From Streptomyces sp. I6 (GTDB lineage: Bacteria > Actinomycetota > Actinomycetes > Streptomycetales > Streptomycetaceae): a stretch of DNA of 64,000 nt. The DNA lies in assembly GCA_003725745.1 (NCBI GenBank), contig RHDP01000001.1, positions 1,081,001-1,145,000 of the forward strand, written 5' to 3'. Of this stretch, positions 19,672 to 64,000 are shown in pieces. The position numbers and the translations under genes were made by a program. The first letter of the stretch is position 1. Each line of letters begins with the position of its first letter. Under the pieces are notes generated by a model. It saw only the letters and a list, made by a program, of their open reading frames with translations. It was not told the origin of the DNA and did not search any database.

Positions 19672-20564
19672 TCAGGCTTCCCGCCCACCGGTGCCGGCAT
19701 CCGCTTCCACGATCGCCACCGCCTGCCCGCTCACCCGCACACGCGGGTCGGCGGTGGAGGCCTCCACCCGGAGCACGCTGGGCCGGCCGAGGTCCTCCCC
19801 CTGGCGGATGGTGAAGGCACCGGAAGGCGGGAGGGCGCCGAGAGCGCGCAGATAGCCGCCGAGAGCGGCGGCCGCGGCACCGGTGGCCGGATCCTCGACG
19901 ACACCGCCGACCGGAAAGGGGTCGCGGGCGTGGAAGAGCTCTCGGGCCTCACGCCAGACCAGCTGGAGCGTGGTCCAGCCGTGACGGTGCATCACCTCGG
20001 ACAGGGCGTCGAAGTCGTAGTCGAGGGCCGCGAGACGCTCGCGGGTGGCCGCGGCGAGGACCAGGTGCTCGTTTCCGCCGAAGGCGACGTGCGGGGAAGT
20101 GCGGGGTCGAGGTCCTCCGGGGACCAGTGCAGGGCCGTGAGGGAGGCGTGCAGTTCCTGGTCGCTCGCCGGCCGCGAGCGGGTGGGGACGCTGGTGAGCG
20201 TCGCCGTCACGGAGCCGTCCGGCTCTGCCGAGGTGTCCAGGGCGATCTCACCCACCGGCGTGTCGAAGGCGAGCGGGCCGGTGCCGATCCGCTCGGCCAG
20301 CGCCACCGCGGTGGCGACGGTTGCGTGGCCGCAGAAGGCGACCTCGGCCAGCGGGCTGAAGTAGCGCAGCCGGAACCGGCGCGCCGCAGGGTCGGCGGCT
20401 GTGACGAACGCCGTCTCCGAGTAGCCGACCTCGGCTGCGGTGGCGCGCATGGCGGCATCGTCCCGTGCGGCCGCGTCGAGCACGACGCCGGCCGGGTTGC
20501 CACCGGCGGGGTCGGTGGTGAAGGCGGTGTAGCGAAGGATCTCGGGGTGTGTCCTCGGGCTCAT
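19672..20564 (-). CDS. PhzF-family isomerase/epimerase-like protein (frameshifted in this sequence)
   Basis: The family has a diaminopimelate-epimerase fold and includes the phenazine isomerase PhzF. The N-terminal half shows TTDPAGGNPAGVVLDAA, GYSETAFV with the catalytic Glu, and FCGHATVATAVALAERIG. The second domain has VVEDPATGAAAAALGGYL. The raw frame breaks after DLDPALP; one extra base in the G run at 20093-20096 gives a 297-residue protein of normal length. I chose ATG 20564 (MSPRTHPEILRYTAF). It is divergent from a LysR regulator that probably controls it. No phenazine genes are present, so the substrate is unknown. Confidence 0.85.
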
Positions 20565-20599
20565 GCCCTTAACCGTCACACCGCGCAGCCATGTTCACA

Positions 20600-20640
20600 A
20601 ACGATGGAAAGCGATGGAAGCGATCGATACATGCGATGGC
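20600..20640. promoter_or_regulatory. Phased CGATGG repeats between PhzF and LysR
   Basis: CGATGGA occurs at 20602 and 20612, CGATCGAT at 20621 and CGATGG at 20634, roughly one helical turn apart, between two divergent starts. ATCG-N7-CGAT within it is a short inverted repeat of the sort LysR-type regulators bind. It is a candidate LysR site controlling both genes. Confidence 0.4.
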
Positions 20641-20659
20641 AGCGGCTATCGTCGGCAGC

Positions 20660-21524
20660 ATGGACACACGACTGCTGCGCACCTTCGCCACGGTCGCCCG
20701 GACCGGGAACCTGACGGCCGCCGCGGAGCGCCTGCACCTCGTCCAGTCCACCGTCACCGCCCAGGTGCAGGCACTGGAGAAGGACCTCGGCCTGCGCCTG
20801 TTCGACCGGCTGCCGCGCGGGGTGGTGCTCACCGGTGCCGGACGCGAGGTGCTGGCACAGGCAGAGGCCGTGCTGGAGGCGGAGTCCCGGTTGCGGTCGG
20901 TTGCCGCCTCGGCCGGTGGCGCGGGCGATCAGGTGACCGGACGCGTGGTGCTCTCGGCCGGCGAGACGCTGGTGTCCGCGCGGCTGCCGGGAGTCATCAC
21001 CGCGCTCCGGCGCAGCCACCCCGGGATCGAAGTGGACCTGCACACGATGGGCACCGCAACCGCCGTAGCCGCGCTCCGCACCGGCGAGCTCGACCTCGCC
21101 CTGCTCCTGGAGGACGAGGCGGACTTCCGCGACATCGAGTGCACGCCGCTGGCCCACGAGCCGCTCGTGCTCGTCTGCTCCCCAGAACACCCCGTCGCCC
21201 GCGGCGCCACCGACTCGCCCGCCCGCTGGGCAGAGCTGGCCCGCCAGGACTACTCGGCTGCTCACCGCCGCCGAAGGCACGCAGCCCCGGATCACCCGCT
21301 TCGGCAGCCTGGAGGCCGCCAGGTCCTGCGTCGCCGCGGGCCTCGGCCTCAGCCTGCTGGCCCGCGCCAATGTCGCGGACGCTCTCGCGGCGGGCCGCCT
21401 GACGCAGGTGCCCGGCCCGCGGTTCCCCGACGTCACCGTCCAGCTGGCCCGCCACCAGCGGCGCTGGCTCTCCCCCGCGGCGGCCGCGCTCACCAGGGAA
21501 CTACCGCACCACTTCCCGCGCTGA
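20660..21524 (+). CDS. LysR-family transcriptional regulator (frameshifted in this sequence)
   Basis: The start MDTRLLRTFATVARTGNLTA at 20660 opens a standard LysR helix-turn-helix (QSTVTAQVQALEKDLGLRLF). The effector domain follows, with VVLSAGETLVSARLPGVITA. The frame breaks at about 21251-21260 after WAELARQDY. Continuing in the next frame gives LLTAAEGTQPRITRFGSLEA and ARSCVAAGLGLSLLARANVA, ending in TGA at 21522-21524, the expected LysR C-terminus. The shift needs one base fewer or two more, unlike most shifts in the window. The restored length is about 287 residues. It is divergent from the PhzF gene and probably regulates it. Confidence 0.85.
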
Positions 21525-21542
21525 ACGCGGCCGCCCCGCGGG

Positions 21543-22641
21543 CTACGGAACGGGAGCGAGGACGTTCCCGGGCCCGTGCAGCCACAGACACCCGCCCTCG
21601 GGCCGCACGGTGAGCCCGAACGCCTCGGCCGCCGGCGAGCCGAGGCCGGCATAGTCGCGGTGCGCCCGCTCGATCTCCGCCCACAACGCGCGCGGCCCGT
21701 ACTCCCACACGTCCCCCGCGACCGCGGTCGCCGCCGAGCCGTCCGGGTGCCGCGCCCACACCTGCGCGCCCGCCGGGCCCTCGCTGTGCCACAGCCGCAC
21801 GGCCGGCAGCCGGGTACCGCCCCAGAGGGCGAACCCCAGGTGCAGCACCGCGGCCGGGCCGAGGCCGGTCCGCCGGCCGCGGGCCGTTCGGCTGTCGACC
21901 GGCTCGCCGCCGGCGACGCGGTGCGACCGCATCGGCATGTACGACGCGGCGCCGTGGAACCGGCCCGTCGCCGTGCCGTCGCCCCGCACGGCGAGCCGCA
22001 CCAGGGCGCCCGACCAGAACTCGCGGGCGAGCGGGGCGACGATCAGCCCGCCCGGCCGCACCTGGTCGACGTACGCCCGCGGTTTCGTGGCGCAGAGCGC
22101 ACGTCGCGAGCAGCCGGTCGAACGGCGCGGCCTCGGGCCAGCCCCGCTCGCCGTCGCCGCAACGGAGGTTCGGCCGGTAGCCGGCGGTGTGCAGCGCCGT
22201 CCCGGCGTGCGCGGCGAGCGCCGGGGCGGGCTCGATGCTGAACACCCGCTCGCCGCCGAGCCGCTCGGACAGCAGCGCCGCGACGTACCCGGACGCGGTG
22301 CCGATCTCCAGTACGCGGGCGCCGTCCTCGACCCGCAGCAGACCGAGCATGCGGGCGGCCGTGCTCGGCTGCGAGTTCGACGGCGTCGCGATGCCGGGCC
22401 CGTCCTCGGCGCCGTCGTCGAGCTGGATCAGGACCGGCTCGTCGGCGTGGACGAGCGCGTGCCGCTCGGCCGGCGAGTCGGGCAGTGTGCATCCGTCGTC
22501 GTCCTGCCGCCACGCGCGGGCGGGGATGATCGGTTCGCGCGGTACGGCGCCCCACACGCGGCGCCATGTGCCGTCGAGCAGACCGCGCTCGTGCAGGTCC
22601 TGCACGAGCGCGGCGTGCCCGCCCGGTCGGGCGGTCGTCAC
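21543..22641 (-). CDS. SAM-dependent methyltransferase, PCMT-like (frameshifted in this sequence)
   Basis: The N-terminal half resembles protein-L-isoaspartate O-methyltransferases, with VLEIGTASGYVAALLSERLG (SAM motif I), FSIEPAP (motif post-I) and FDRLLATCALR. The C-terminal part from RPGGLIVAPLAREFWSGALV is typical of actinobacterial methyltransferases of this type, some of which modify ribosomal peptides. The two parts are in different frames around 22089-22093 and fit if one base there is extra, giving about 365 residues. GTG 22641 overlaps the stop of the upstream XRE gene (GTGA) and has GGAGGAC upstream, so the two are coupled. I found no peptide precursor gene next to it. Confidence 0.75.
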
Positions 22642-23353
22642 GACGTCGAGTCCTCCGTGGCCTTGCCGGGCCCGCTGCCGTCCGGTGAGGGCGGCAGCGG
22701 CGGCGGGTTCCACGGCCGGTCGCTCGGCTGCCCCGCGTGCGCGGCCGGATCGTCGGCATCCTGCGCCGCGGCGAGCGCCCGGTCGGCGACGACCCACGCG
22801 AGCTCGGCGGGCGCGACATACGCGGTCGCCTGCCCAGTGAGTCGGTACACGTCCGACAGCGCGACGAGCCCCGCCCGACGCTCGGCGCCGTCGAGGCCGC
22901 GGCCGGCTGCCTCGGCATCGCGGATCAGCTTCGGCAGCAGCCGGGCGACTTCCGTGCGGTTGTGGCCGCTGCTGTGCCACAGCTCCCACGTCTGGTCGAC
23001 GCGACCCTGCAGCGCGGCGACATCGACCGGGCACCCGGGCCTTGACGGGATGAGCCGGCGGTTCATCACCGCGTCCCGGATCGCGGGCATTCCCGAATGG
23101 TGCAGGAGACCACTCGGAACGGTCTGAGCCGGCCCCGCAGCGCCGGTGATGATCGAGGCGTCCGAGATCTGCAGCGCGGCGGCGAGACGCAGAATCAGGG
23201 TGTTGGAGCGCAGCTCACGCTCCCCTGTCTCGATCTTCTTCAACCAGTCGACGCCGCGGCCGACATGCCCGCGAGGATCTCGCGGGTCATGCCTCGGGAG
23301 TCGCGCAGCAGCCGGATGCGTTCGCCGGTCGTGAGTTCGTCGGGGATGTCCAC
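22638..23353 (-). CDS. XRE-family helix-turn-helix regulator (frameshifted in this sequence)
   Basis: The true N-terminus starts at GTG 23353 (DIPDELTTGERIRLLRDSRG) with the first helix-turn-helix helices MTREILAGM. The frame then shifts: one missing base near 23264 joins it to VGRGVDWLKKIETGERELRS, completing the Cro/CI-type domain. The remaining 150 residues (NRTEVARLLPKLIRDAEAAG, VYRLTGQATAYVAPAELAWV) form the helical, TPR-like C-terminal domain common in large Streptomyces XRE proteins. The restored length is 238 residues. Such regulators often sit beside small-protein or peptide-modification genes; here the partner is the coupled methyltransferase. Confidence 0.75.
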
Positions 23354-23630
23354 GACCGGTGCCCTTCTCTGTTCCGTTTCGGTCAGGGTGCGGGCGTAGT
23401 CCCCGGCGAGGGAACGTCGTTCGTGTACAAGCCGTCCGGGTATGCCAAGGCTCCCCCGGTGCGGACCCGCCGGGCGGACCCTGCGGCCGCCCGTTGACCT
23501 GCGGGCCCCCAGGCCCCTCCGGACCGGGCGGGCCCGGCTCGCCCTGCGCGCCGTACGGGCCCGTCACCGCGCTTGGGAGCCCTGCCCGCCTTCGCCCTGG
23601 CCCTCGGCCCGGGTCACGTAGCCTTCGTCC
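23354..23630. other. Divergent intergenic region, no supported gene
   Basis: These 277 bp lie between the XRE gene (minus) and the nucleotidyltransferase gene (plus). On the minus strand the sequence could encode a Gly-Pro-rich, collagen-like stretch, but this has no ribosome binding site and no conserved context. I see no other structure beyond GC-rich sequence. Confidence 0.4.
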
Positions 23631-24380
23631 ATGACTCCCCAGGACCTGGTGCGCGACCACACGATCTACTCCTGTGTGATGGGGTCACGGGCCTTCGGCC
23701 TGGCCACGGACGGCAGCGACACCGACCTCCGCGGTGTGTTCCTCGCACCGACCGCCCTGTACTGGCGGTTCGACAAGCCCCCGACCCATGTGGACGGTCC
23801 CGCGGAGGAGCAGTTCTCGTGGGAGCTGGAGCGCTTCTGCGAGCTGGCGCTGCGGGCCAACCCGAACATCCTGGAGTGCCTGCACTCCCCCCTCGTCGAG
23901 CGCGTCGACGACACCGGCCGTGAACTGCTCGCGCTGCGAGACGCGTTCCTGTCCCGGCGGGTCCACGAGACGTTCGTCCGCTACGCAGTCGGCCAGCGGC
24001 GCAAGCTGGACGCGGATGTCCGGCAGTACGGCGCTCCGCGCTGGAAGCACGCGATGCATCTGCTGCGGCTGCTGGCGACGTGCCGCGATCTCCTGCGTAC
24101 GGGCCGGCTGGTGACCGACGTGGGCGACGGCCGTGAGCGGCTGCTCGCGGTCAGGCGGGGCGAGGTGCCCTGGCCCGAGGTGGAGTCCTGGACCGCCCGG
24201 CTCGCCGCGGAGGCGGACGCCGCGGTGACCGGGAGCCCGCTCCCCGCCGAGCCGGACCGGGCGCGGGTGGAGGACTTCCTGGTCCGGGTACGGCGGGCGT
24301 CAGCGCTGCGGGAGGCCCAGCCGGGTCCGTACGGCGAAGTCGTGCAGGTCGTGGCGGGCGGTGGCCTCGTCGGGCAGTGA
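23631..24380 (+). CDS. RlaP-type nucleotidyltransferase (DNA polymerase beta superfamily), copy 1
   Basis: The 249-residue protein starts at ATG 23631. The catalytic segment YSCVMGSRAFGLATDGSDTD followed by LRGV is the GS...SDxD signature of minimal nucleotidyltransferases of the COG3541/RlaP type, which place NMP on an unknown acceptor. The middle (PNILECLHSPLVER and WKHAMHLLRLL) is the family's helical C-terminal part. RlaP proteins have been associated with RNA repair and with ADP-ribose-processing genes. It converges on a second, diverged member and overlaps it by 81 bp in antisense, so its last 27 codons may be a run-on caused by a lost stop or an indel. Confidence 0.8.
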   Translation: MTPQDLVRDHTIYSCVMGSRAFGLATDGSDTDLRGVFLAPTALYWRFDKPPTHVDGPAEEQFSWELERFCELALRANPNILECLHSPLVERVDDTGRELLALRDAFLSRRVHETFVRYAVGQRRKLDADVRQYGAPRWKHAMHLLRLLATCRDLLRTGRLVTDVGDGRERLLAVRRGEVPWPEVESWTARLAAEADAAVTGSPLPAEPDRARVEDFLVRVRRASALREAQPGPYGEVVQVVAGGGLVGQ

Positions 24381-25025
24381 CGAGCGCGCCCGGGCCTCGT
24401 CCAGGACGGAGTGCAGTTCCTCCACCTCCGCGTGCACGGTCCCGGTGTCCACGAGCGCCATCCCGTGCTCGGCCTCGGTCTTCGCCGCGATCAGCTCGGG
24501 CAGCCGGGCCGGCGCCGTCATCTCGCCCAGCAGCGTGGGCAGATGGGCGACGACCTCGCCGGTGCGCATCAGATGGATACCCGTGAGCAGCGCCCGGTAG
24601 GTGTAGAGCAGTGGCTTCAGCTCACCGGTCTTCTCGAACAGCCGCCACTGGGTGCCGGCGAACCCCCGGTAGTGGTGGGCGTGGTGCGTCGTCAGCACCC
24701 CGGGGGCGAGCGCGACGAGCTCCTCGTGGGCCGGCGTGGTGTGGGCCACCAGCGGCGACAGCAACTGCTCCAGCACATAGCCGTTGCGGCGCAGCATCAG
24801 CCGGACGAACTTCCGGAGGTCGTGCGTGACGAGGTCCATCTCCACGCCGCCCCTGACCCACATCAGGGACCGGGTCTCGTCCGGTTCGCGCAGTCCGACC
24901 AGGTCCTCCACCGGCAGCAAGTGGACTCCGCGCAGATCCACGTCCGAGTCGCGGGACGGAAAGCCGTAGAGGTGCGCGCCGGAGACCGTCGCGAAGAGCA
25001 GCGGGTGGGGCTGCTCCGCGGCCAC
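24300..25025 (-). CDS. RlaP-type nucleotidyltransferase, copy 2
   Basis: A 241-residue paralogue of the convergent gene. HPLLFATVSGAHLYGFPSRD followed by SDVDLRGVHLLP gives the catalytic Asp pair (SDVD). LMLRRNGYVLEQLLSPLVAH and RGFAGTQWRLFEKTGELKP follow the family pattern seen in Bacillus YcgL-like proteins. The first in-frame start after a stop is GTG 25025; it has no strong ribosome binding site and begins 40 bp after the ADP-ribosylglycohydrolase stop, suggesting it is the last gene of the pnuC operon. The acceptor molecule is unknown; RNA ends or a small nucleotide are possible. Confidence 0.82.
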   Translation of the reverse strand: MAAEQPHPLLFATVSGAHLYGFPSRDSDVDLRGVHLLPVEDLVGLREPDETRSLMWVRGGVEMDLVTHDLRKFVRLMLRRNGYVLEQLLSPLVAHTTPAHEELVALAPGVLTTHHAHHYRGFAGTQWRLFEKTGELKPLLYTYRALLTGIHLMRTGEVVAHLPTLLGEMTAPARLPELIAAKTEAEHGMALVDTGTVHAEVEELHSVLDEARARSSLPDEATARHDLHDFAVRTRLGLPQR

Positions 25026-25064
25026 GGGGGCGAGTTCGGCGAGGTGAAGGGCCAGTGTCTTGGC

Positions 25065-26105
25065 TCAAGCATCCCAAAGGGCACCCAGGGTCAGCAGTTC
25101 GCTGCGGTACTCGATGCGCTCCTCCCACTCCTTGGGCCAGGCCCGGGCACCGAGGTGCGCCCCGGCGAAGGCGCCCGCGAGGCAGGCGATCGAGTCGGAG
25201 TCCCCCCGGGTGCACGCGGCGCGGCGCAGCGCCGTCAGCGGTTCCTCGGGGAAGAGCAGGAAGCAGTGCAGCGCGGTGGCGAGGGCCTCCTCGGCGATCC
25301 AGCCGTCGCCGGTGGCGAGGCAGGGGTCGGTCTCCGGGTCGGGGTCGCGCAGGGCGTCGGCCAGGCGCTCCAGCGCCGCGAGGCACTCGTCCCAGCCGCG
25401 CTCGATGAAGTCCTCCGGCGTGCCGTCGTGGGCGTAGGTCCAGAGGTCGCCGAGCCAGCCGTGGTGGTAGCGGGAGCGGTTCTCGTACGCGTACGACCGC
25501 AGCCGCCCGACCAGGCCGGCCGGTTCCGTGCCGCGCGCCAGCAGGTACACGGCCCGTGCCGTGAGGTCGGAGGCGGCCAGCGCCGCCGGGTGGCCGTGTG
25601 TCAGCGCCGCCTGGAGCTGGGATGCGCCGGCACGCTGCCCGTCGCTGAGGCCGGGAACCAGCCCGACGGGCGCCACGCGCATGTTCGCCCCGCAGCCCTT
25701 GGACGCGATCTGGCTCGCTTCCTGCCACGGCATGTCGCTGTCGAGTTTGTGGCAGGCGACCAGACAGGTGCGGCCGGGGGCGCGGTTGTTGTCGGGCGAG
25801 TGGTACCAGTCCACGAACTCCTCGCGCAGCGGCCGGGTCAGCCGCAGCGGGGCGAGCAGTCCCCGGTCCGTGGCCGTGCGTATGGCACGGGCCAGCGCGA
25901 GGGTCATCTGGGTGTCGTCGGTGACGACGGCGGGCCTCGGCAGGTCCATCTCCCGCCAGGGCCCGAACGAGGCGAGGATCGACGGCACGTCCTTGAACTC
26001 GGTGGGGAAGCCGAGCGCGTCGCCGAGTGCCAGCCCGACGAGGGTGCCGGTGGCGGCCTGCTTGGTGGCGGTCATCGCCGCCGCCAGGCCGGTCATGTCC
26101 TTCAT
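25065..26105 (-). CDS. ADP-ribosylglycohydrolase (DraG family)
   Basis: The 346-residue hydrolase removes ADP-ribose from proteins or small molecules. Conserved metal-binding motifs are present: GLALGDALGFPTEF near residue 25, VVTDDTQMTLALARAI near residue 60 and GDSDSIACLAGAFAGAHLGA near the C-terminus, together supplying the Asp residues for two Mg ions. It starts at ATG 26105, overlapping the stop of the Nudix gene (ATGA), so it is made together with the NAD salvage proteins. No dinitrogenase reductase is around, so the substrate is not the classical DraG target; free or nucleic-acid-linked ADP-ribose fits the context better. Confidence 0.9.
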   Translation of the reverse strand: MKDMTGLAAAMTATKQAATGTLVGLALGDALGFPTEFKDVPSILASFGPWREMDLPRPAVVTDDTQMTLALARAIRTATDRGLLAPLRLTRPLREEFVDWYHSPDNNRAPGRTCLVACHKLDSDMPWQEASQIASKGCGANMRVAPVGLVPGLSDGQRAGASQLQAALTHGHPAALAASDLTARAVYLLARGTEPAGLVGRLRSYAYENRSRYHHGWLGDLWTYAHDGTPEDFIERGWDECLAALERLADALRDPDPETDPCLATGDGWIAEEALATALHCFLLFPEEPLTALRRAACTRGDSDSIACLAGAFAGAHLGARAWPKEWEERIEYRSELLTLGALWDA

Positions 26106-26830
26106 GTCGAATGCCGTCCTTCCGGTCGCAGAAGCGGAGGGTGCAGGGCGTTCGCCGGCCCCGCGCGGTAGAGCGCGGCCGGTTTCCCCCGGCCACCGGT
26201 CAGGCGCGCGCCTCCTTCGACGGCTTCCACGAAGCCTGGCGTGGTGAGGACCTTGCGCCGGAAGTTGGGGCGGTCGAGTTCGACGCCCCAGACGGTCTCG
26301 TACACCTGCCGCAGCTCGCCGAGGGTGAACTCGGCGGGGCAGAAGGCGGTGGCGAGTCCGGTGTACTCGAGTTTGGCGCCGACGCGTTCACGGGCGTCGG
26401 CGAGGATGCGTTCGTGGTCGAAGGCGAGGAGCGCCTGGCTGCCGTGGGCCACCCAGCGGGCGTGCGCGGCGTCGCCTCCGCCGCGCGGTTCGGGCAGGTC
26501 GGGCAGGAGGGCGGTGTAGGCGACCGACACGACCCGCATCCTGGGGTCGCGGCCGGGGTCGCTGTAGGTGCGCAGCTGCTCCAGGTGGAGGCCGGCGACG
26601 GTGGCCTCCGACAGACCGGTCTCCTCGGCGAGTTCACGGCGGGCGGCCTGCTCGGCGGACTCCCGCGGGAGGAGGAAACCGCCGGGCAGCGCCCAGGCGC
26701 CCTTGTACGGTTCGGTCCCGCGTTCGATCAGCAGGACGTGCAGCCGGCCGTCGCGGATGGTGAAGACGGCGAGGTCCACGGTGACGGCGAAGGGCGGGAA
26801 CGCCCTCGGGTCGTATCCCTCGACGCTCAC
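26102..26830 (-). CDS. NrtR-type Nudix hydrolase/transcriptional regulator
   Basis: The 242-residue protein starts at GTG 26830, which overlaps the NadR stop (GTGA). Residues 15-150 form a Nudix domain with an intact box: G-x5-E in GGFLLPRESAEQ followed by RRELAEETGL. Residues 160-225 form the winged helix typical of NrtR (FTLGELRQVYETVWGVELDR, then NFRRKVLTT). NrtR proteins repress NAD synthesis and salvage genes and are released by ADP-ribose or related NAD derivatives. The intact Nudix box suggests that this one can also hydrolyse ADP-ribose. The palindrome in front of pnuC is its likely operator (inference). Confidence 0.88.
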   Translation of the reverse strand: MSVEGYDPRAFPPFAVTVDLAVFTIRDGRLHVLLIERGTEPYKGAWALPGGFLLPRESAEQAARRELAEETGLSEATVAGLHLEQLRTYSDPGRDPRMRVVSVAYTALLPDLPEPRGGGDAAHARWVAHGSQALLAFDHERILADARERVGAKLEYTGLATAFCPAEFTLGELRQVYETVWGVELDRPNFRRKVLTTPGFVEAVEGGARLTGGRGKPAALYRAGPANALHPPLLRPEGRHST

Positions 26831-27933
26831 CGGAACTCCGGCACGGGTGCGTCCCCGCCCCGGGCGGGGAGGGGGGCGGCGAAGTGCCAGCCCTCGGCGA
26901 TCAGTTCGTCCACGGCGGCGACGGCGGTGGCCAGCCGCTGGTGGTGCGGTCCGGTGACGGTGACGAACCGCCGGCCGGTGCGGGTGAGTTCCCCGGCGAA
27001 CCGGGCCGTCATCCAGGGGCGCAGATGCTCGCCGTCGCGCAGTCCGTCGTCCTCGAAGGGCACTCCCTCGTGGTCGGTGAGCAGCCAGAGGTCGCCCCGG
27101 CCGGCCGCGGCGATCCGGGCGACCTCCTCGTGCCGGCCGCCCAGGTAGCGCTCGTGCCAGACGGTGGTGGCGAAGGCGTCGGTGTCGCAGATCAGGACCG
27201 GGGAGCCGATCCGGGCGGCGGCGTTCTCCCGTTCGGTCTGGCGGCGGGCGATCAGCGGGAAGTCGTCGCCGGCGAAGCGGACGTCGGACCAGACCGCGCC
27301 CGGCTGTTCGGCGCGCAGGGCCGCGAGCTTCCGCTCGCTGTACTCCCTGCCGTACTCGGGTACGGCGGCGGTGCGCGACCACACCCCGCCGCGCGACCGG
27401 TAGTGCGCGGCGAGGGCCTCGGCCAGGGTGGTCGTGCCGGTGGACTCCGCGCCGAGGACGACCACGCGCCGGGCGAGGGCGGCGCGTACCGGCGGCTCCA
27501 GGAAGTCCCAGCAGCCGACGGGGTCGTTGCGCACGGCCGTGCCGGAGACCGGGAAGACCGTCCGCTCCGGGTCGACGCAGACCGAGTCGGCGCGGAACCT
27601 GCGGGCCAGTTCCTCGCCGTACGCCTCGGACGTGAACACGGCGTCCACGCGCTCGGGGACGGCCGAGCGGAAGACCGCCATGTGCGCGTCCCACACCGCC
27701 GGGTCGGTGAGGTCGACGGGGATGTCGTCGACGGCGCCGACCACCCGGACGTCCGGGTGCACCTCGCTCATCCACGCCGTCCGGGCGTCGAGCGGGATCG
27801 ACTCCACGGAGGCGGCGCAGACGAGGACGGTCAGCCGGTCGCAGCGGTCGCGCGCGGTCCTCACCAGATGGTGGTGGCCCGCGTGCGGCGGATAGAACTT
27901 GCCGAGGACGAGCCCGTGCCGGTAGCGCTTCAC
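26827..27933 (-). CDS. nadR: NadR-like bifunctional NMN adenylyltransferase / P-loop ATPase
   Basis: The 368-residue protein starts at GTG 27933 with GGAGG seven bases upstream, overlapping the pnuC stop. Residues 1-150 are an NMN adenylyltransferase with LVLGKFYPPHAGHHHLV and the PVSGTAVR nucleotide-binding motif, making NAD from NMN. From residue 158 comes a P-loop domain like the ribosylnicotinamide kinase part of NadR. Its Walker A is GAESTGTTTL (residues 161-170), with Thr in place of the usual Lys. There is no N-terminal helix-turn-helix, so regulation is left to the NrtR-type protein. The predicted pathway is nicotinamide riboside to NMN to NAD, fed by PnuC. Confidence 0.9.
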   Translation of the reverse strand: MKRYRHGLVLGKFYPPHAGHHHLVRTARDRCDRLTVLVCAASVESIPLDARTAWMSEVHPDVRVVGAVDDIPVDLTDPAVWDAHMAVFRSAVPERVDAVFTSEAYGEELARRFRADSVCVDPERTVFPVSGTAVRNDPVGCWDFLEPPVRAALARRVVVLGAESTGTTTLAEALAAHYRSRGGVWSRTAAVPEYGREYSERKLAALRAEQPGAVWSDVRFAGDDFPLIARRQTERENAAARIGSPVLICDTDAFATTVWHERYLGGRHEEVARIAAAGRGDLWLLTDHEGVPFEDDGLRDGEHLRPWMTARFAGELTRTGRRFVTVTGPHHQRLATAVAAVDELIAEGWHFAAPLPARGGDAPVPEFR

Positions 27934-28616
27934 GCCGTCGCCTCCACGGTCGTTTCGTGCCGCGCTGCGCCGGTGGGCACCGGCAGCGGGCGCCTGACCG
28001 CCGGATCGCGCGACCAGTGCCGCAGCCCGAGGACGCAGAGCGTCATGAAGCCGATGTACAGCAGGGCGGTGAGATACAGCTCCTTGTACGCGTACAGCGG
28101 CACGTAGACCACGTCCGCCGCGATCCACAGCCACCAGGACTCCAGCCGCTTGCGGCACTGCCCGTACGTCGCCATCAGGGACAGCGCGGTGGTCAGCGCG
28201 TCCCAGAACGGGACGTCCGAGTCGGTGGCCCGGTCCAGGAGCAGTGTCAGCCCGGCTGTCCCCACCACCCCCGCCGCGAGCAGCCACGTCCACTCGGCGC
28301 GCGTGGTGCGGCGCACCGGGAGGACGCCGGAGCCTGGTCCACCCCCGTGGGTCCAGGTCCACCAGCCGTACACGGCGAGGGTGATGAAGACGACCTGCAG
28401 CCCCGCGTCGGCGTACAGGCCGGCCTGGGTGAAGAGCAGGACGAAGAGGACGTTGTTGGCGATGCCGACGGGCCAGTTGGCGATGTGCTGCCGGGCCACG
28501 AGCCAGACGCACAGGGCCCCGGTGCCGAAGCCGAGCACCTCGGTCCAGCTGACCGGTGTGCCGAGCGGCGTGAACAGCGGCTGCTGCAACGGCGCGAGTA
28601 CGTCCGCGAGGCTCAC
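27930..28616 (-). CDS. pnuC: PnuC-family nicotinamide riboside transporter
   Basis: The 228-residue membrane protein has about seven hydrophobic segments. Family features include QHIANWPVGIANNVLFVLLF, AVYGWWTWTHGG and the C-terminal WLWIAADVVYVPLYAYKELY. PnuC proteins import nicotinamide riboside by facilitated diffusion, pulled by its phosphorylation by the partner NadR kinase. The start is GTG 28616, with an AGAGGGGG-type ribosome binding site; a second GTG lies two codons upstream. It is the first gene of the NAD salvage operon and the promoter with its palindrome lies directly upstream. Confidence 0.9.
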   Translation of the reverse strand: MSLADVLAPLQQPLFTPLGTPVSWTEVLGFGTGALCVWLVARQHIANWPVGIANNVLFVLLFTQAGLYADAGLQVVFITLAVYGWWTWTHGGGPGSGVLPVRRTTRAEWTWLLAAGVVGTAGLTLLLDRATDSDVPFWDALTTALSLMATYGQCRKRLESWWLWIAADVVYVPLYAYKELYLTALLYIGFMTLCVLGLRHWSRDPAVRRPLPVPTGAARHETTVEATA

Positions 28617-28631
28617 GGCCACCCCCCTCTT

Positions 28632-28674
28632 TAGAGTCACTATGACTATAAAGGTGCGAGGGGCGGCCCGGCAA
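28632..28674 (-). promoter_or_regulatory. Promoter and NrtR-like operator in front of pnuC
   Basis: Read on the minus strand, TTGCCG (28669-28674) and TATAGT (28645-28650) are 18 bp apart and make a good sigma-70-type promoter. The -10 hexamer is part of an inverted repeat TATAGTCA-TAG-TGACTCTA (28632-28650), with 7 of 8 positions paired. Overlap of operator and -10 is what a repressor needs. The obvious candidate regulator is the NrtR-type Nudix protein encoded in the same operon. Confidence 0.65.
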
Positions 28675-28725
28675 GCACGACCGCGGAAGGAAGGGACACG
28701 GTGGGCGGCGCGGGCACAGCTACGG

Positions 28726-28842
28726 CGGCGGCACGGTGGGCGGACGCACGGCGGCCCGAGCAACGGCGCCACGGTGGACGGACACGCAGCGGCCCGAGCA
28801 ACGGCGCCACGGTAGGCGGACACGCAGCGGCCCGAGCAACGG
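28726..28842. repeat. 38-bp tandem repeat (about three copies)
   Basis: Two complete copies start at 28751 and 28789, with a partial copy before and one of about 16 bp after (28827). The unit contains GCGGCCCGAGCAACGGCG and ACGGACACGCA. The two full copies differ at only two or three positions. It lies in a gene-free region between the pnuC promoter and the end of rluB. There are no unique spacers, so it is not a CRISPR array. Confidence 0.75.
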
Positions 28843-29211
28843 GGCGTTGCCGGGCAGGAGCGGGTCGGGGCCCGGGCTGCGGGCATCGCTCCCCCGGGCG
28901 CCCGAGGCCCGGCGCCTGGCCGCGCACCTGCCGGGGCCGATACCCGAGCCCGGCCGCCCGGCCGAGCCGCCGGGCGCCCTCCCGGGCACGGCGGCCATGG
29001 CGGCCGACGGCCGCTTCGGGGCGGCCCCGCGCTTCTTCCGCCGGGCCCATCGCCCCGGGGGAGCACCTGTCGGGCGAAGCGCGGGCGCCCGCCCGGCACC
29101 CAGAACGGAGGGCGGGTACCCGGGATCCGGGCTCCCGGCCGCCCGCCGCTCACCGCCCGCGGGAGAGCGCCGGACAGGCGTTCGCGCTCCACCGCCGCAG
29201 CACGGCAGGCG
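28843..29211. other. Gene-free region downstream of rluB
   Basis: Very GC-rich sequence without a convincing coding frame on either strand. Open frames exist but show the composition of chance ORFs in high-GC DNA and no domain. It probably contains the rluB terminator and spacer DNA. Confidence 0.4.
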
Positions 29212-30294
29212 TCAGAGCCCGACTTCCTTCATCAGCATGCCGACCTCGGTGTTGCTCAGCCGGCGCAGCCAGCCGGACTTCTGGTCGCCGAGCGCGATCG
29301 GGCCGAACGCCGTCCGCACGAGCTTGTCGACCGGGAAACCCGCCTCGGCCAGCATGCGCCGGACGATGTGCTTGCGGCCCTCGTGCAGTACGACCTCGAC
29401 GAGGTAGTTCTTGCCGGTCTGCTCCACGACCCGGAAGTGGTCGGCGCGAGCGTACCCGTCCTCCAGCTGGATGCCTTCCCTGAGGCGCTTGCCGACCTCG
29501 CGCGGGAGGGGGCCCTGGATCGCGGCGAGGTAGGTCTTCTGCACTCCGTACTTGGGGTGCGTCAGCCGGTGCGCCAGCTCGCCGTGGTTGGTGAGCAGGA
29601 TGATGCCCTCGGTCTCCGTGTCGAGCCGGCCGACGTGGAACAGGCGGGTCTCGCGGTTGGTGACGTAGTCCCCGAGGCACTGGCGGCCGTCCGGGTCCTC
29701 CATCGTGGAGACGACTCCGGCCGGCTTGTTGAGCGCGAAGAACTGGTACGACTGCGTGGCGACCGTCAGGCCGTCCACCTTGATCACGTCCTTGGCCGGG
29801 TCGACGCGCAGGCCCTGCTCGGTCACGATCTCGCCGTTGACCTCGACACGGGCCTGGTCGACCAGCTCCTCGCAGGCCCGCCGTGAGCCGTAGCCGGCGC
29901 GGGCGAGCACCTTCTGCAGCCGCTCGCCCTCCTGCTCGGCACCCGGAAACGTCCTGGGCGTGCTCGTCCGGGGCTTGTTCGCGTGGCGCTCGCGGTTGCG
30001 CTCCTCGGCACGGGCCTCGTACTCGCGGGAGCGGGCGGGCGCGGTACGCCCGCCGCCGCGCTGCGGGGACTGCTTGGGACCTCCCTTGGCGCCGCCCCGG
30101 GCGGTCGCGCCGCGGCCCTTCTTCGGGCCGTCGGACGCCGAGCCCCCCACGTCGTAGCGGCGCTCCTCGGGACGGGGCTTGCCCGCGCTCTTCTGCTTGT
30201 CGTCGCGCTGTCCCCCGCTCCTCGACCGGGCGGCGCCCCCACCGGTACCCCGGTAGTCGCCGCGTCCGCTGCTGTTCCTGCCGCTGCTTCGCAT
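29212..30294 (-). CDS. rluB: 23S rRNA pseudouridine synthase, RluB/RsuA family
   Basis: The 360-residue protein starts at ATG 30294, overlapping the scpB stop. The first 110 residues are a basic, Gly/Arg/Ser-rich disordered extension, an RNA-binding-like tail common in actinobacteria. Then come an S4 domain (RLQKVLARAGYGSRRACEEL) and the catalytic domain with the GRLDTETEGIILLTN motif, whose Asp attacks the target uridine. The C-terminal part VLHEGRKHIVRRMLAEAG is also conserved. The expected target is a uridine in the 23S peptidyl transferase region. It is the last gene of the parA-scpAB operon. Confidence 0.93.
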   Translation of the reverse strand: MRSSGRNSSGRGDYRGTGGGAARSRSGGQRDDKQKSAGKPRPEERRYDVGGSASDGPKKGRGATARGGAKGGPKQSPQRGGGRTAPARSREYEARAEERNRERHANKPRTSTPRTFPGAEQEGERLQKVLARAGYGSRRACEELVDQARVEVNGEIVTEQGLRVDPAKDVIKVDGLTVATQSYQFFALNKPAGVVSTMEDPDGRQCLGDYVTNRETRLFHVGRLDTETEGIILLTNHGELAHRLTHPKYGVQKTYLAAIQGPLPREVGKRLREGIQLEDGYARADHFRVVEQTGKNYLVEVVLHEGRKHIVRRMLAEAGFPVDKLVRTAFGPIALGDQKSGWLRRLSNTEVGMLMKEVGL

Positions 30295-31136
30295 CAAAGT
30301 TCCGTCGTCGTCGTGTCGTCTGCGTCTGTGTCCGGTGCGTCCGGATCGAACGACGGGACACCCTCCTGGGTCTCGGCCTCGATCGCCTCCGCCTCGGGGA
30401 GGAACGGCGCGAGTTCGGGGAGCTCGTCCAGACCGCGCAGGCCCATCCGCTCCAGGAAGTAGTTCGTCGTCCTGTACAGGATCGCACCTGTCTCGGGTTC
30501 CGTGCCCGCCTCCTCGACCAGACCGCGCTGGAGCAGGGTGCGCATGACGCCGTCGCAGTTCACTCCGCGCACGGCCGAGACCCGGGAGCGGCTGACGGGC
30601 TGGCGGTACGCGACCACGGCCAGCGTCTCCAGGGCGGCCTGGGTGAGCCGGGCCTGCTGGCCGTCGAGGACGAACCGCTCCACGGCGGCGGCGTGCTCGG
30701 GACGGGTGTAGAAGCGCCAGCCTCCGGCGACGAGCCGCAGCTCGAAGCCGCGGCCCTGGACCGTGTACTCGTCCGCGAGCCGGCGCAGGGCGTCGGCGAC
30801 GGCGCGGCGGGGCTGCTCGAGGACCTTGGCGAGGTGCTCCTCGGTGGCCGGCTCGTCGACGACCATCAGCACGGCCTCGAGGGCGGGCTTGAGCGCGGAC
30901 CGGGCCCCGGCGGCGTCCCCGGTCCGGGGCTCGTGCGGCACCCCGGAGGCGTCCTCCGGCACGGAGGCGTCCCCGGCACCGGGCGCGTCCCGAGCCGCGG
31001 GAGCGACGGCCGCACCGGGCGCCGCGGCGGTGCGGGTCCCTGGCGCGGCGGCCCGACCGGACGCGTCCTGAGCCCCGGGCGGCGCGGCGGCGGTACGCGC
31101 CCCGGGCACTGCGGCCTCTGCGAGGTCGTCGCTCAC
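30294..31136 (-). CDS. scpB: Segregation and condensation protein B
   Basis: This is a 280-residue kleisin-associated (kite) protein with two winged-helix domains: LKPALEAVLMVVDEPATEEH starts the first, and LTQAALETLAVVAYRQPVSR followed by SRVSAVRGVNCDGVMRTLL the second. An 80-residue Ala/Pro-rich extension precedes them and an acidic Asp/Thr tail follows. ScpB dimers bind ScpA and the SMC ATPase to form the condensin that organises and segregates the nucleoid, important during the multi-genome septation of sporulating hyphae. The GTG start overlaps the scpA stop. Confidence 0.95.
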   Translation of the reverse strand: MSDDLAEAAVPGARTAAAPPGAQDASGRAAAPGTRTAAAPGAAVAPAARDAPGAGDASVPEDASGVPHEPRTGDAAGARSALKPALEAVLMVVDEPATEEHLAKVLEQPRRAVADALRRLADEYTVQGRGFELRLVAGGWRFYTRPEHAAAVERFVLDGQQARLTQAALETLAVVAYRQPVSRSRVSAVRGVNCDGVMRTLLQRGLVEEAGTEPETGAILYRTTNYFLERMGLRGLDELPELAPFLPEAEAIEAETQEGVPSFDPDAPDTDADDTTTTEL

Positions 31137-36179: not shown

Positions 36180-38331
36180 CTACGGATTTCGTAGGCCGGA
36201 AACATCTTCTCCCAGCAGCCGCTCAGCGGCGGCGCGATGCAGTCCTGCCGCTGCCGCGTCACCGAGACGCTCCAGCGTGTCGGCCAGCCGCAGCTGGAGC
36301 GCGGCCTGGAGCCTCAGGTCCCCGGCCCGGCGCGCCCAGGCCACGGCCTCCTCGCAGGTGCGCAGCGACTCCTCCGGGCGTCCCGCGTACTCCTGGACCC
36401 GGGCCGCCTCGCTCAACGCCCGCGCATGACCCGGCAGATCACCGAGGCGCCGGTATCCGGCCGCGGCCGCCCGCCAGCTGCGCAGCGCCTCCCCGTACCG
36501 CCCGGCGTAGGTGTGCACGCCCCCAGCCGGCCGTACAGCCGTGCCTCGTCGGCCCGCTCCCCCGGGAGAGGCGCTGGGAGAGGGCGCGCCCGTACCAGTC
36601 CGCCGCCCGCTCCCAGTCCCCGAGCTCCTGGTGCGCACCGCCTACGGATTCCATCGCCCGGGCCACGGCGTACGGGTCGTTTCCGCACCGGCCGGCGTCC
36701 AGCGCGGCCCGGTATCGTGCCAGCGCGTCCTCCGTCCGGCCCGTCCGCGCGTCCAGGTCGGCCAGGTTCAGCAGCGCGGCGGCCTGCTCCCGGTGCAGTC
36801 CTCGGCGCACGGCCACATCCAGCACGAGCTGGTGCAGACCGTAGAGCTCGGGCGCGGCCGGCTCCGTGCCGCGGTGCGCGACCAGGGCCCGGACGAGCGC
36901 GGAGATCAGCCGCCGGGCCAGGGTGTCCAGCTCTCCGTCGGCCACCGCGATCCGCGCGGCGGCGACCAGCACGGGCCGGCGCGCCTCCAGCCAGGCCCCG
37001 GCGGCCTCGGCGCCGGGGAACCGCAGGGCACGCGGCAGTCCGGCGATCCTCCTGCGGGCCGCGGAGCCCTCGGGTTCGGTGACGGCGCGGCAGGACTGCA
37101 GCAGCCGTACGGTCCGCTCCAGCATCCGGGCCCGGGCGAGCTGCACCTCCGCGGGCCGCTCCTCCTCCGTCACCAGGGCCCGCAGCAGCGGGGCGAGGCA
37201 GCCGGGCACCTCGTACTGCTCGCCGCCCACCGGCTCGCCGCCCGCCCGCTGTCCGCCCGCACCCTCGCCGCCCGCACCGTCGTTCCCCTCCGCCGCGCCA
37301 CCGGCGGTGTGCAGCAGCCCGAGCGCGGCGAATTCCTCCAGGGCCGAGCGGGCCGCCGAGACCGAGCAGCCGGCCAGGGCGGACGCGATATGCGCGTCCG
37401 CCCGTCCGGCGGGAGCGAGGGCGAGCAGCCGCAGCAGCCGCGCCGCGGACTGCGGGAGCGAGTCGTGGACCAGCCGGAAGGCCCGGGCCAGCGGCCGGGC
37501 GCCGACGGGTGCCTCCGGGTCGTCGGACTGCCCGTGCAGCTGCTTGGTCGCGTCGGCGACCGAGGTCTGGGGGCGGGCCGCCAGCCAGCCGCCGACCAGC
37601 ATCATCGCGGCGGGCTGCCCGCCGCACTCCTCGACCAGCGACTCGGCGGCCTGCGGGTCGACGGTGACCCGCACCGAGCCGGTGAACCGGCTCAGCAGCT
37701 CGATCGCCGACTTGGCGTCCATGCCGCCGATCGTGCACGGCCGCACATCGGGGATCCCGGTGAGCGGCCCCTGGGAGACGGCGACGACCAGGCACTCCGG
37801 GTTGTCCGGCAGCAGGGGGTCCACCTGCTCCGCGTCGGCCGCGTCGTCCAGCACGAGCACGCACCGCCGCACGGCGAGCGCCTCGCGGACCATCTCGGTG
37901 AGCACGTCCTCGTCGGCACCGGCCGGTGCGGTGGCACCGAGCGCCTCCAGGAGTCCGCGCGCGGTGCGGTCGCCGGGGACGGGTTCGCCGCCCGGCTCGG
38001 TGAGCCTGGCCCACAGCACCCCGTCCGGGTACTCGTCCGCCAGTCGCCGGGTCAGTTCCGCGGCGAGCGCCGTCCTGCCCGAGCCGGGCCGTCCGGCGAC
38101 GAGCAGCACCCGGGCGCGAGGCGCCTTGCGCCCGGAGATCGTGTCCAGACCGGCCCGCTCGATGTCGGCCCGCAGCGCCCTCAACTCCCGCTGGCGCCCG
38201 ATGAATCGCCCACCCACGGCGCCAACGATCCCATGACCGGTCCGTTCCTCAGGCACGGGCCCTGCCTGCGACGGGCGGTTCTCGGACGAGGGCTCCTCGA
38301 AGTCCACCGCCTGATCCGTCACGGGCGCCAC
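36180..38331 (-). CDS. NB-ARC-like ATPase with TPR repeats (two frameshifts in this sequence)
   Basis: The protein starts near 38331 and opens with a STAND/NB-ARC-type NTPase: VLLVAGRPGSGRTALAAELT is the P-loop, with Arg in place of the usual Lys, and RRCVLVLDDAADAEQVDPLL the Walker B. A winged-helix region and a helical half follow, with TPR-like repeats at the C-terminus (AAALLNLADLDARTGRTEDA; AGRYGEALRSWRAAAAGYRR). C runs at 36559-36563 and 36520-36524 each lack one base; restoring both gives 717 residues. There is no DNA-binding domain, so it differs from SARP-type regulators. It may be a signalling switch or chaperone-like sensor; its target is unknown. Confidence 0.75.
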
Positions 38332-60807: not shown

Positions 60808-60926
60808 GTTCGGCGGCGTCCTACTCTCCCACAGGGTCCCCCCTGCAGTACCATCGGCGCTGAAAGGCTTAGCTTCCGGGTTCGAAATGTAACCGGGCGT
60901 TTCCCTAACGCTATGACCACCGAAAC
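60808..60926 (-). rRNA. rrf: 5S ribosomal RNA
   Basis: The 119-nt gene begins GTTTCGGTGGTCATAGCG and ends GTAGGACGCCGCCGAAC on the minus strand. The two ends pair and the loop-C segment CGAACCCGGAAGCTAAG is present. The 108-bp spacer to the 23S gene (60927-61034) contains no tRNA. Confidence 0.97.
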
Positions 60927-61034
60927 CCTATCGGGTTCGAGCGAACAAGCACACTTTTCAATTGAAGAAGTGAATCTGGTTCGACCGGTGCGACTGTTCG
61001 CAACCCGGGAACCACACAGTGGACGCGAGCAACT

Positions 61035-64000
<2,966 letters not shown>

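Follow-up and report, generated by a model that had tools for sequence, protein, structure and literature searches.

A putatively NrtR-controlled Streptomyces operon joining NAD salvage, a DraG-family hydrolase and an RlaP nucleotidyltransferase: a possible response to ADP-ribose

In a 64,000-nt stretch of the Streptomyces sp. I6 chromosome (the window, to whose positions the coordinates refer; G+C content 72.6%, a high-G+C Streptomyces-type chromosome), the genes pnuC, nadR, nrtR, draG and rlaP2 follow one another on one strand, and a second RlaP gene, rlaP1, converges on them (Table 1). Overall, after analyzing these genes, their relatives and their surroundings, we conclude that the operon is real and that its NrtR-type operator is specific and occurs once in the genome. 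The part of the operon for the salvage of nicotinamide adenine dinucleotide (NAD) and its DraG-Nudix part are of known kinds, and the new element is the close association of DraG with RlaP2 and RlaP1, which recurs in the Streptomycetaceae and at this closeness was seen here only there. We lean towards reading the locus as an ADP-ribose-response operon.

The gene content and layout described by an earlier sequence-only reading were borne out, the families by Pfam and the overlaps and convergence by coordinates. As that reading had it, 4-nt overlaps join the first four genes (three overlaps: GTGA, GTGA and ATGA). rlaP2 starts on the operon strand 39 nt past the draG stop, with no terminator-like site found in the scanned stretch, and the convergent rlaP1 and rlaP2 share 81 bp at their 3′ ends. 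The start codon of pnuC is GTG, at 28616 or 28622. The single promoter placed ahead of pnuC also stands: it is the only sigma-70-like site in the 8 kb scanned (22500–30500), where 0.1 would be expected. rlaP1 and rlaP2 are the sole RlaP matches in the 7.05 Mb host genome, the assembly of which is listed as 87% complete.

Table 1. Operator and genes of the NrtR-type operon, with the convergent and paralogous genes discussed in the text
Feature	Position	Strand	Details
NrtR-box-like palindrome	28629..28653	-	CTTTATAGTCA-TAG-TGACTCTAAAG, over promoter-like -10 element TATAGT
pnuC, nicotinamide riboside transporter	27930..28616	-	PF04973 NMN_transporter 203 bits; TIGR01528 above cut-off
nadR, nicotinamide mononucleotide adenylyltransferase and nicotinamide riboside kinase	26827..27933	-	AAA_28 99 bits; TIGR01526; HxGH motif
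nrtR, Nudix and winged-helix repressor	26102..26830	-	PF00293 NUDIX 74 bits; PF21906 NrtR_WHD 57 bits
draG, ADP-ribosylglycohydrolase (ARH/ARG)	25065..26105	-	PF03747 ADP_ribosyl_GH 216 bits; DDTQM and GDSDS
rlaP2, RlaP nucleotidyltransferase	24300..25025	-	PF10127 177.9 bits (cut-off 23)
rlaP1, convergent RlaP nucleotidyltransferase	23631..24380	+	PF10127 111.2 bits (cut-off 23)
Second NrtR paralogue of the host genome	G000:C1:5270806-5271552 (L172)		Own conserved promoter element

The operator has the form TTTATAGTCA-N3-TGACTATAAA and differs from the published NrtR motifs of Mycobacterium and Streptococcus. The palindrome has no second match at up to three mismatches in the 7.05 Mb genome, and its reversed control had none. 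A palindromic operator thus precedes the NAD genes here, and across related loci it stands before pnuC, nrtR or draG, whichever is the first gene. Upstream of rlaP1, no site scored above 14 of 22 at 44 loci, which rules rlaP1 out of the NrtR regulon. The earlier proposal of two RlaP proteins in one NAD system is not supported for RlaP1, which lies outside the operon and has no NrtR box.

The families were backed by Pfam, NCBIfam and PHROGs searches of the operon proteins. The CTP_transf_like domain of NadR scored 19.7 bits, slightly under the cut-off of 21, and NadR aligned nearly end to end with TIGR01526 (4.8e-55) at 187 bits, below the equivalog cut-off of 341. DraG and NrtR (NF050029) were also under their NCBIfam equivalog cut-offs, neither RlaP was matched in the NCBIfam search, and a sequence search found no solved relative of RlaP. 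The DraG of the window aligns to the solved DraG structures 2woe/2woc.

The catalytic motifs are largely intact. The Nudix box (GX5EX7REUXEEXGU) is unbroken in all 31 local NrtR copies, in contrast to the NrtR of Mycobacterium smegmatis (MsNrtR), for which PMC6800001 describes a loss of catalytic activity. HxGH is kept in 9 of 9 NadR matches, and among 60 DraG matches DDTxM is present in 59 and GDxD[ST] in 58. In an alignment of 38 RlaP2 sequences (A2), D28, D30 and D64 are invariant and the GS motif has become GA; in one of 37 RlaP1 sequences (A3), GS, D30, D32 and E60 are invariant. The third-position acidic residue occurs in 76 of 77 RlaP1 matches from Streptomycetaceae, and the remaining one has Q. 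The carboxylates of polymerase-beta nucleotidyltransferases are conserved in both proteins, and RlaP1 and RlaP2 look catalytically competent, taking the polymerase-beta family as a guide to the catalytic residues. Two RlaP1-like proteins from other loci (L090 and L091, 42–46% identical) retain little of the G-S and D-x-D motifs and are apparently non-catalytic.

From these data, we provide a putative mechanism. NrtR would bind the palindrome over the promoter and repress the operon; the site is seen, and binding is expected from the family. A rise in ADP-ribose, caused by NAD consumption or by stripping through DraG, would free NrtR from the DNA, as described for the NrtR proteins of M. smegmatis and Streptococcus suis (PMC6800001). 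PnuC and NadR would then rebuild NAD from nicotinamide riboside, DraG would take ADP-ribose off its targets, and the Nudix domain of NrtR, whose motifs are intact, may hydrolyse ADP-ribose and reset the switch. RlaP2 would be co-induced and would probably work with its paired paralogue RlaP1, which is expressed separately; the likeliest reaction may be nucleotidyl addition to damaged RNA ends, the weakest step of the scheme.

Conservation was followed in 37 Streptomyces genomes, including that of strain I6, with counts made by hand from search tables. A DraG orthologue was found in 33, RlaP1 in 30, full RlaP2 in 20 and a local NrtR (at least 74% identity) in 24, and for 28 of the 30 RlaP1 genes DraG is less than 3 kb away. 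The order of the block is scpA-scpB-rsuA-[pnuC-nadR]-[nrtR]-draG-rlaP2 with rlaP1 converging, and 32 of the 35 Streptomyces loci compared have it at scpAB-rsuA; DraG is missing from the remaining three. Even in Streptomyces, pnuC-nadR and nrtR are optional: of 45 DraG-bearing loci scanned strictly, with L171 among them from the related genus g147, 8 had pnuC and nadR and 31 had a local nrtR. A ninth candidate, L044, combines nadR with no more than a short match to PnuC, and L183, at the end of its contig, could not reveal the pair. Read by eye on the DraG tree, the pnuC-nadR loci lie mostly in one part of Streptomyces. The two genomes with RlaP1 and no DraG orthologue at the threshold used are G018 and G035. 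In the latter, a different DraG-family gene (L048:7945-8889; 28% identical, 314 aa) is divergent, about 110 bp from a tandem rlaP1-rlaP2; its product has DDTQM, and the second motif was not found by pattern. This is possibly a second, independent DraG-RlaP association.

Beyond the genus, the RlaP pair occurs without the other genes. A profile scan with RlaP2 gave at least 577 loci, and the best 80, with up to 10 kb of fetched flank, were examined. At all 15 Streptomyces-named loci among these, DraG adjoins RlaP2 and RlaP1 converges. In the fetched flanks of the other 65 loci (which include Planomonospora, Nonomuraea, Microbispora, Actinomadura, Kribbella, Actinoplanes, Salinispora and Yinghuangia), no DraG, NadR or PnuC was found at E values up to 1e-4, and one locus (L155) has a single weak, partial NrtR match about 7 kb off. 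Both RlaP genes lie on the same strand at 57 of these 65 loci, and RlaP2 is alone at 8, one of them near a contig end; in 39 of the 56 same-strand pairs with usable coordinates, an in-frame start overlaps or abuts the RlaP1 stop. A further 14 RlaP-pair loci of another family, several on contigs shared with the 65, likewise had no DraG (0/14), NadR or PnuC. Therefore, the RlaP pair is a module that can do without the NAD genes. At 4.6 kb from a more distant RlaP (L087) lies a DraG-like gene (32% identical), and at 7–8 kb from two others (L068 and L076) a PnuC-like gene (34%), which speaks against so clean a separation.

The five functions are ruled out as one conserved system, with pnuC-nadR at 8 of the 45 strict-scan loci and neither gene in the 65 flanks. 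The sequence-only reading had proposed a candidate NAD and RNA-repair system and had named a lack of conserved co-occurrence outside close relatives as one result that would speak against it. What stands of this is that NAD salvage, de-ADP-ribosylation and RlaP2 share one NrtR-type switch and that the key motifs are intact; a dedicated unit is not supported, given the 65 and 14 loci without its partners. Conserved co-occurrence outside close relatives is largely missing for the NAD genes and partly missing for DraG and RlaP.

The neighbors of the RlaP pair in other genera are varied. Twelve loci list 26 neighbors, and the nine that were searched all belong to unrelated families: an acyl-CoA synthetase, a glycosyltransferase, a solute-binding protein, a melibiase, gyrase B, a HTH regulator, a NACHT protein, a Band 7 protein and a P450. 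The NACHT-domain gene, which separates rlaP1 from rlaP2 in an Actinoplanes (L162:7570-9885), may point to a role in defence. At two other loci (L055:4548-6230 and L060:8689-10350), a conserved protein of 554–561 aa with no Pfam match is encoded between the two RlaP genes.

Within the family, a survey of related genera covered 40 loci, 33 from genus g147 and 7 from other genera; the latter have RlaP genes without DraG. In g147, the scpAB-rsuA site often holds rlaP2-draG with rlaP1 converging, so that draG is downstream and not upstream of rlaP2. DraG is present at 12 of 17 g147 loci with RlaP2 (that of L211 is a fragment, and that of L216 is partial with an internal stop), compared with 2 of 15 with RlaP1 but without RlaP2 (L235 in two pieces; contig-end L234 excluded), a co-presence with a Fisher p of 0.0016, uncorrected for relatedness. 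None of the 40 loci had NrtR, NadR or PnuC, or a box scoring 17 or more. The trio is thus kept in another order, and the DraG-RlaP association outlives a change of gene order, not by way of NrtR. On the DraG tree, the supports around the history of the g147 DraG are 0.52–0.85. We infer that the RlaP pair and DraG met at scpAB-rsuA, that NrtR control then arose in Streptomyces and that pnuC-nadR was an optional addition.

Further evidence on regulation came from a second NrtR. At the threshold used, a match to NrtR was found in 35 of the 37 Streptomyces genomes, and 33 of the 37 hold a paralogue about 62% identical to the NrtR of the window. Of five genomes read, four carry GTTTATCGTCAGGNAGACGA upstream of this paralogue and one carries GCTTATCGTCAGGCAGACGA. 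For each of the 45 loci with DraG, the highest-scoring site was taken and kept if it reached at least 18 of 22. Where a local nrtR is present, at least one half-site has A at the variable position at 22 of 23 loci. Where it is missing, A occurs at this position at 0 of 10, and all ten show a TATCGTCA, CATCGTCA or AATCGTCA half-site. At 10 of the 14 loci without local nrtR, then, the operator resembles that of the second NrtR paralogue. Searched without mismatches in 12 genomes, TTTATCGTCANNNNGAC matches the promoter of the second paralogue in nine; it matches elsewhere, not at draG, in G009, G026 and G034, and nowhere in G036 and G010. In G003, G016 and G020, all without a local nrtR, its one other match is at draG, and the TTTATCGTCA half-site pattern stands solely upstream of the second NrtR paralogue and upstream of draG. 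These patterns suggest that, upon loss of the local nrtR, draG-rlaP2 passes to the paralogous NrtR and so stays in an NrtR regulon.

Several observations weigh against an ADP-ribose-response operon. On the DraG tree, the operator change tracks the local nrtR in one (supported branches) to three (all branches) independent pairs, and one to three switch events are too few for a significant test. Twelve of the 45 loci (eight with and four without local nrtR) scored below 18 and were left out of the count; L036, L171 and L181 have no convincing operator, and L183 begins at a contig end. The g147 locus has neither NrtR nor box, and therefore NrtR control is not essential to the DraG/RlaP trio. Full RlaP2 stands beside DraG in only 18 of the 33 DraG-bearing Streptomyces, and in five of the 33 neither RlaP1 nor RlaP2 reached the threshold used, although G022 keeps an RlaP1 remnant. 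A fixed chromosomal position alone can preserve adjacency. Moreover, NrtR proteins do not all behave alike: in Corynebacterium glutamicum, NAD improves the binding of NrtR to DNA (PMC6800001).

Some of these points are also those of the most serious alternative, which we consider possible but less probable: an ordinary NrtR-PnuC-NadR salvage regulon that also holds DraG, with RlaP2 and RlaP1 as unrelated neighbors that are kept by static synteny at scpAB-rsuA and have a substrate of their own. It would explain the block beside scpA and rsuA at 32 of 35 Streptomyces loci, the frequent loss of RlaP2, an RlaP1 without an NrtR box and, among the best 80 of at least 577 loci, the 57 non-Streptomyces RlaP pairs with no flanking DraG, NadR or PnuC and one weak NrtR-like match 7 kb off. 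However, RlaP2 shares the strand of the operon and follows draG after 39 nt, and the scan showed no terminator-like site; the trio stands in another order in g147, where DraG accompanies RlaP2 at 12 of 17 loci and is found at 2 of 15 without it (relatedness uncorrected); and the distant second DraG-family gene in G035 adjoins a tandem RlaP pair.

The substrate of the RlaP pair bears on a further alternative. RlaP proteins are described as RNA-ligase-associating polymerase-beta nucleotidyltransferases, whose predicted role is to put back missing nucleotides ahead of ligation (PMC7824862, PMC6514570). Both proteins here match PF10127 with intact carboxylates, but they are two paired paralogues, and a search of the operon and of the 13 flanking proteins tested gave no RNA ligase. 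The Rnl-type ligase family is unmatched in the host genome, which holds RtcB and a KptA-like gene at other places; RtcB is present in 37 of 37 Streptomyces, with or without RlaP. A tRNA search of the window found none. For the phage relatives, we chose seven regions from 206 RlaP1-like and 27 RlaP2-like records, and in six of the seven an RNA ligase or polynucleotide kinase lies near. An annotated RNA ligase is at most two genes away in two (Daredevil and Bantam, Gordonia phages with similar gene order here), a polynucleotide kinase is at most four genes away in four (BRock, VanLee, pSt2308 and Alone3), and the Kradal region has neither. The genomic partnership with an RNA ligase by which RlaP members are judged was thus present in two of the seven phage regions and absent at this locus. 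The link of RlaP to RNA repair drawn by the sequence-only reading agrees with the published family (PMC7824862) and the phage neighborhoods. The family thus makes an RNA substrate plausible, but the locus does not indicate one.

The RlaP pair might instead transfer nucleotides to proteins or small molecules, AMPylator- or toxin-like, and not be an RNA enzyme at all. The polymerase-beta fold serves many acceptors, the operon holds no RNA ligase, the Rnl-type ligase family is unmatched in the genome, and the GS motif of RlaP2 has become GA. We consider this unlikely, given that the family is published as RNA-ligase-associated (PMC7824862) and that phage homologues lie near end-healing enzymes.

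The flanks were assessed with Pfam on 13 window proteins, a part of the open reading frames between 17 and 38 kb, one of which had no Pfam match. Most of these genes are housekeeping, the exception being a 630-aa NB-ARC and TPR protein (36442–38331), encoded some 8 kb from the operon and next to alanine dehydrogenase and parA-scpA-scpB. No ADP-ribosyltransferase or sirtuin was found among the Pfam matches of the 13, and PADLOC returned only a weak match of the NrtR Nudix domain to PDC-S07. Neither a known anti-phage family nor an island was thus found, and a mobile defence island is not supported. Nearer the operon, the methyltransferase-like and XRE-like regulator frames upstream of rlaP1 (21490–23400) look broken by eye, and the match of a LysR-type gene (20591–21613) to its substrate domain is limited to the first half. 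A PhzF-like gene (19672–20579) is split, one frame covering profile positions 1–152 of 281 and the rest apparently lying in another frame, which suggests a frameshift or an assembly error. The 5S and 23S rRNA genes lie at the window end (60808–64000, minus strand).

The operon resembles the ADP-ribosylglycohydrolase (ARG)-centric systems, which occur in actinobacteria and others and for which section 3.8 of PMC9503650 proposes the same induction logic as ours; a Nudix or WYL regulator accompanies more than 42% of these systems. A coupled phosphatase (about 55%) and, often, a peptide-binding chaperone are described as optional parts (PMC9503650). In common are an ARG/DraG with intact motifs, a Nudix-HTH one-component regulator, variable extra genes and the lack of a coupled ADP-ribosyltransferase or sirtuin, here among the 13 flanking proteins tested (PMC9503650). 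In contrast to those systems (PMC9503650), the operon has no phosphatase, peptide-binding chaperone or restriction nuclease and has RlaP, PnuC and NadR instead; neither the phosphatase nor the chaperone was found in the operon or the 13 flanking proteins. The main text of PMC9503650 mentions neither RlaP nor PnuC. A nadR-pnuC-nrtR salvage cluster under NrtR is described in S. suis (PMC6800001); the same three families stand here under one palindrome, but with DraG and RlaP2 added.

A counter-ADP-ribosylation conflict module for phage or toxin recovery, in which DraG would remove foreign ADP-ribose, RlaP would mend cut RNA and salvage would refill NAD, is a quite improbable alternative: it fits the ARG-centric prediction (PMC9503650 section 3.8), the phage relatives, the missing ADP-ribosyltransferase family in the tested flanks and the NACHT and NB-ARC/TPR neighbors, but the locus is core chromosomal with mostly housekeeping flanks, PADLOC gave one weak Nudix-domain match, the phosphatases, chaperones and nucleases of the published systems are missing from the operon, and DraG is conserved genus-wide at one place.

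Returning to an ADP-ribose response, related hydrolases in Streptomyces offer some context. DraT-DraG and DarT-DarG are reversible ADP-ribosylation pairs that share the ADP-ribose hydrolase with this operon, but no cognate ADP-ribosyltransferase was found at the locus. In S. coelicolor, SCO1764–SCO1770 are presumably the genes from rlaP1 up to scpA; if so, SCO1767 is this NrtR. Upon disturbance of topoisomerase levels, SCO1767 (a 'DNA hydrolase') rises by about 1.9 and 1.8 log2, in tables where recA and lexA appear too (PMC6637917). S. coelicolor has eight uncharacterised DraG/ARH homologues (PMC9411070), and SCO1766 is listed as an uncharacterised DraG homologue (PMC5087735, PMC9411070). The ARH-like SCO5809, another DraG homologue, strips ADP-ribose from RNA phosphate ends (PMC11833690). 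One could imagine DraG and RlaP1/RlaP2 acting in sequence on the same damaged molecule, DraG de-ADP-ribosylating RNA ends and an RlaP heteromer restoring the nucleotide, with the module induced by the released ADP-ribose. We regard this as quite improbable; if true, it would be an ADP-ribose-sensing RNA-end repair pathway.

Our literature search found no paper that joins RlaP with NrtR and DraG, a search that a paper on RlaP with just one of these terms would escape. The main text of PMC7824862, which has RlaP, mentions neither NrtR nor DraG nor ADP-ribosylglycohydrolase. The novelty would be lower if a Streptomyces NrtR regulon that includes DraG or RlaP is already given by Rodionov 2008 or RegPrecise. 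The regulator appears to have been swapped, with an operator that varies according to the remaining paralogue, and this is a natural experiment on NrtR specificity. Many bacterial ADP-ribosylation hydrolases, especially RNA-directed ones, lack known targets, and a DraG tied to an ADP-ribose-type regulator and a paired nucleotidyltransferase names conditions and partners for one of them.

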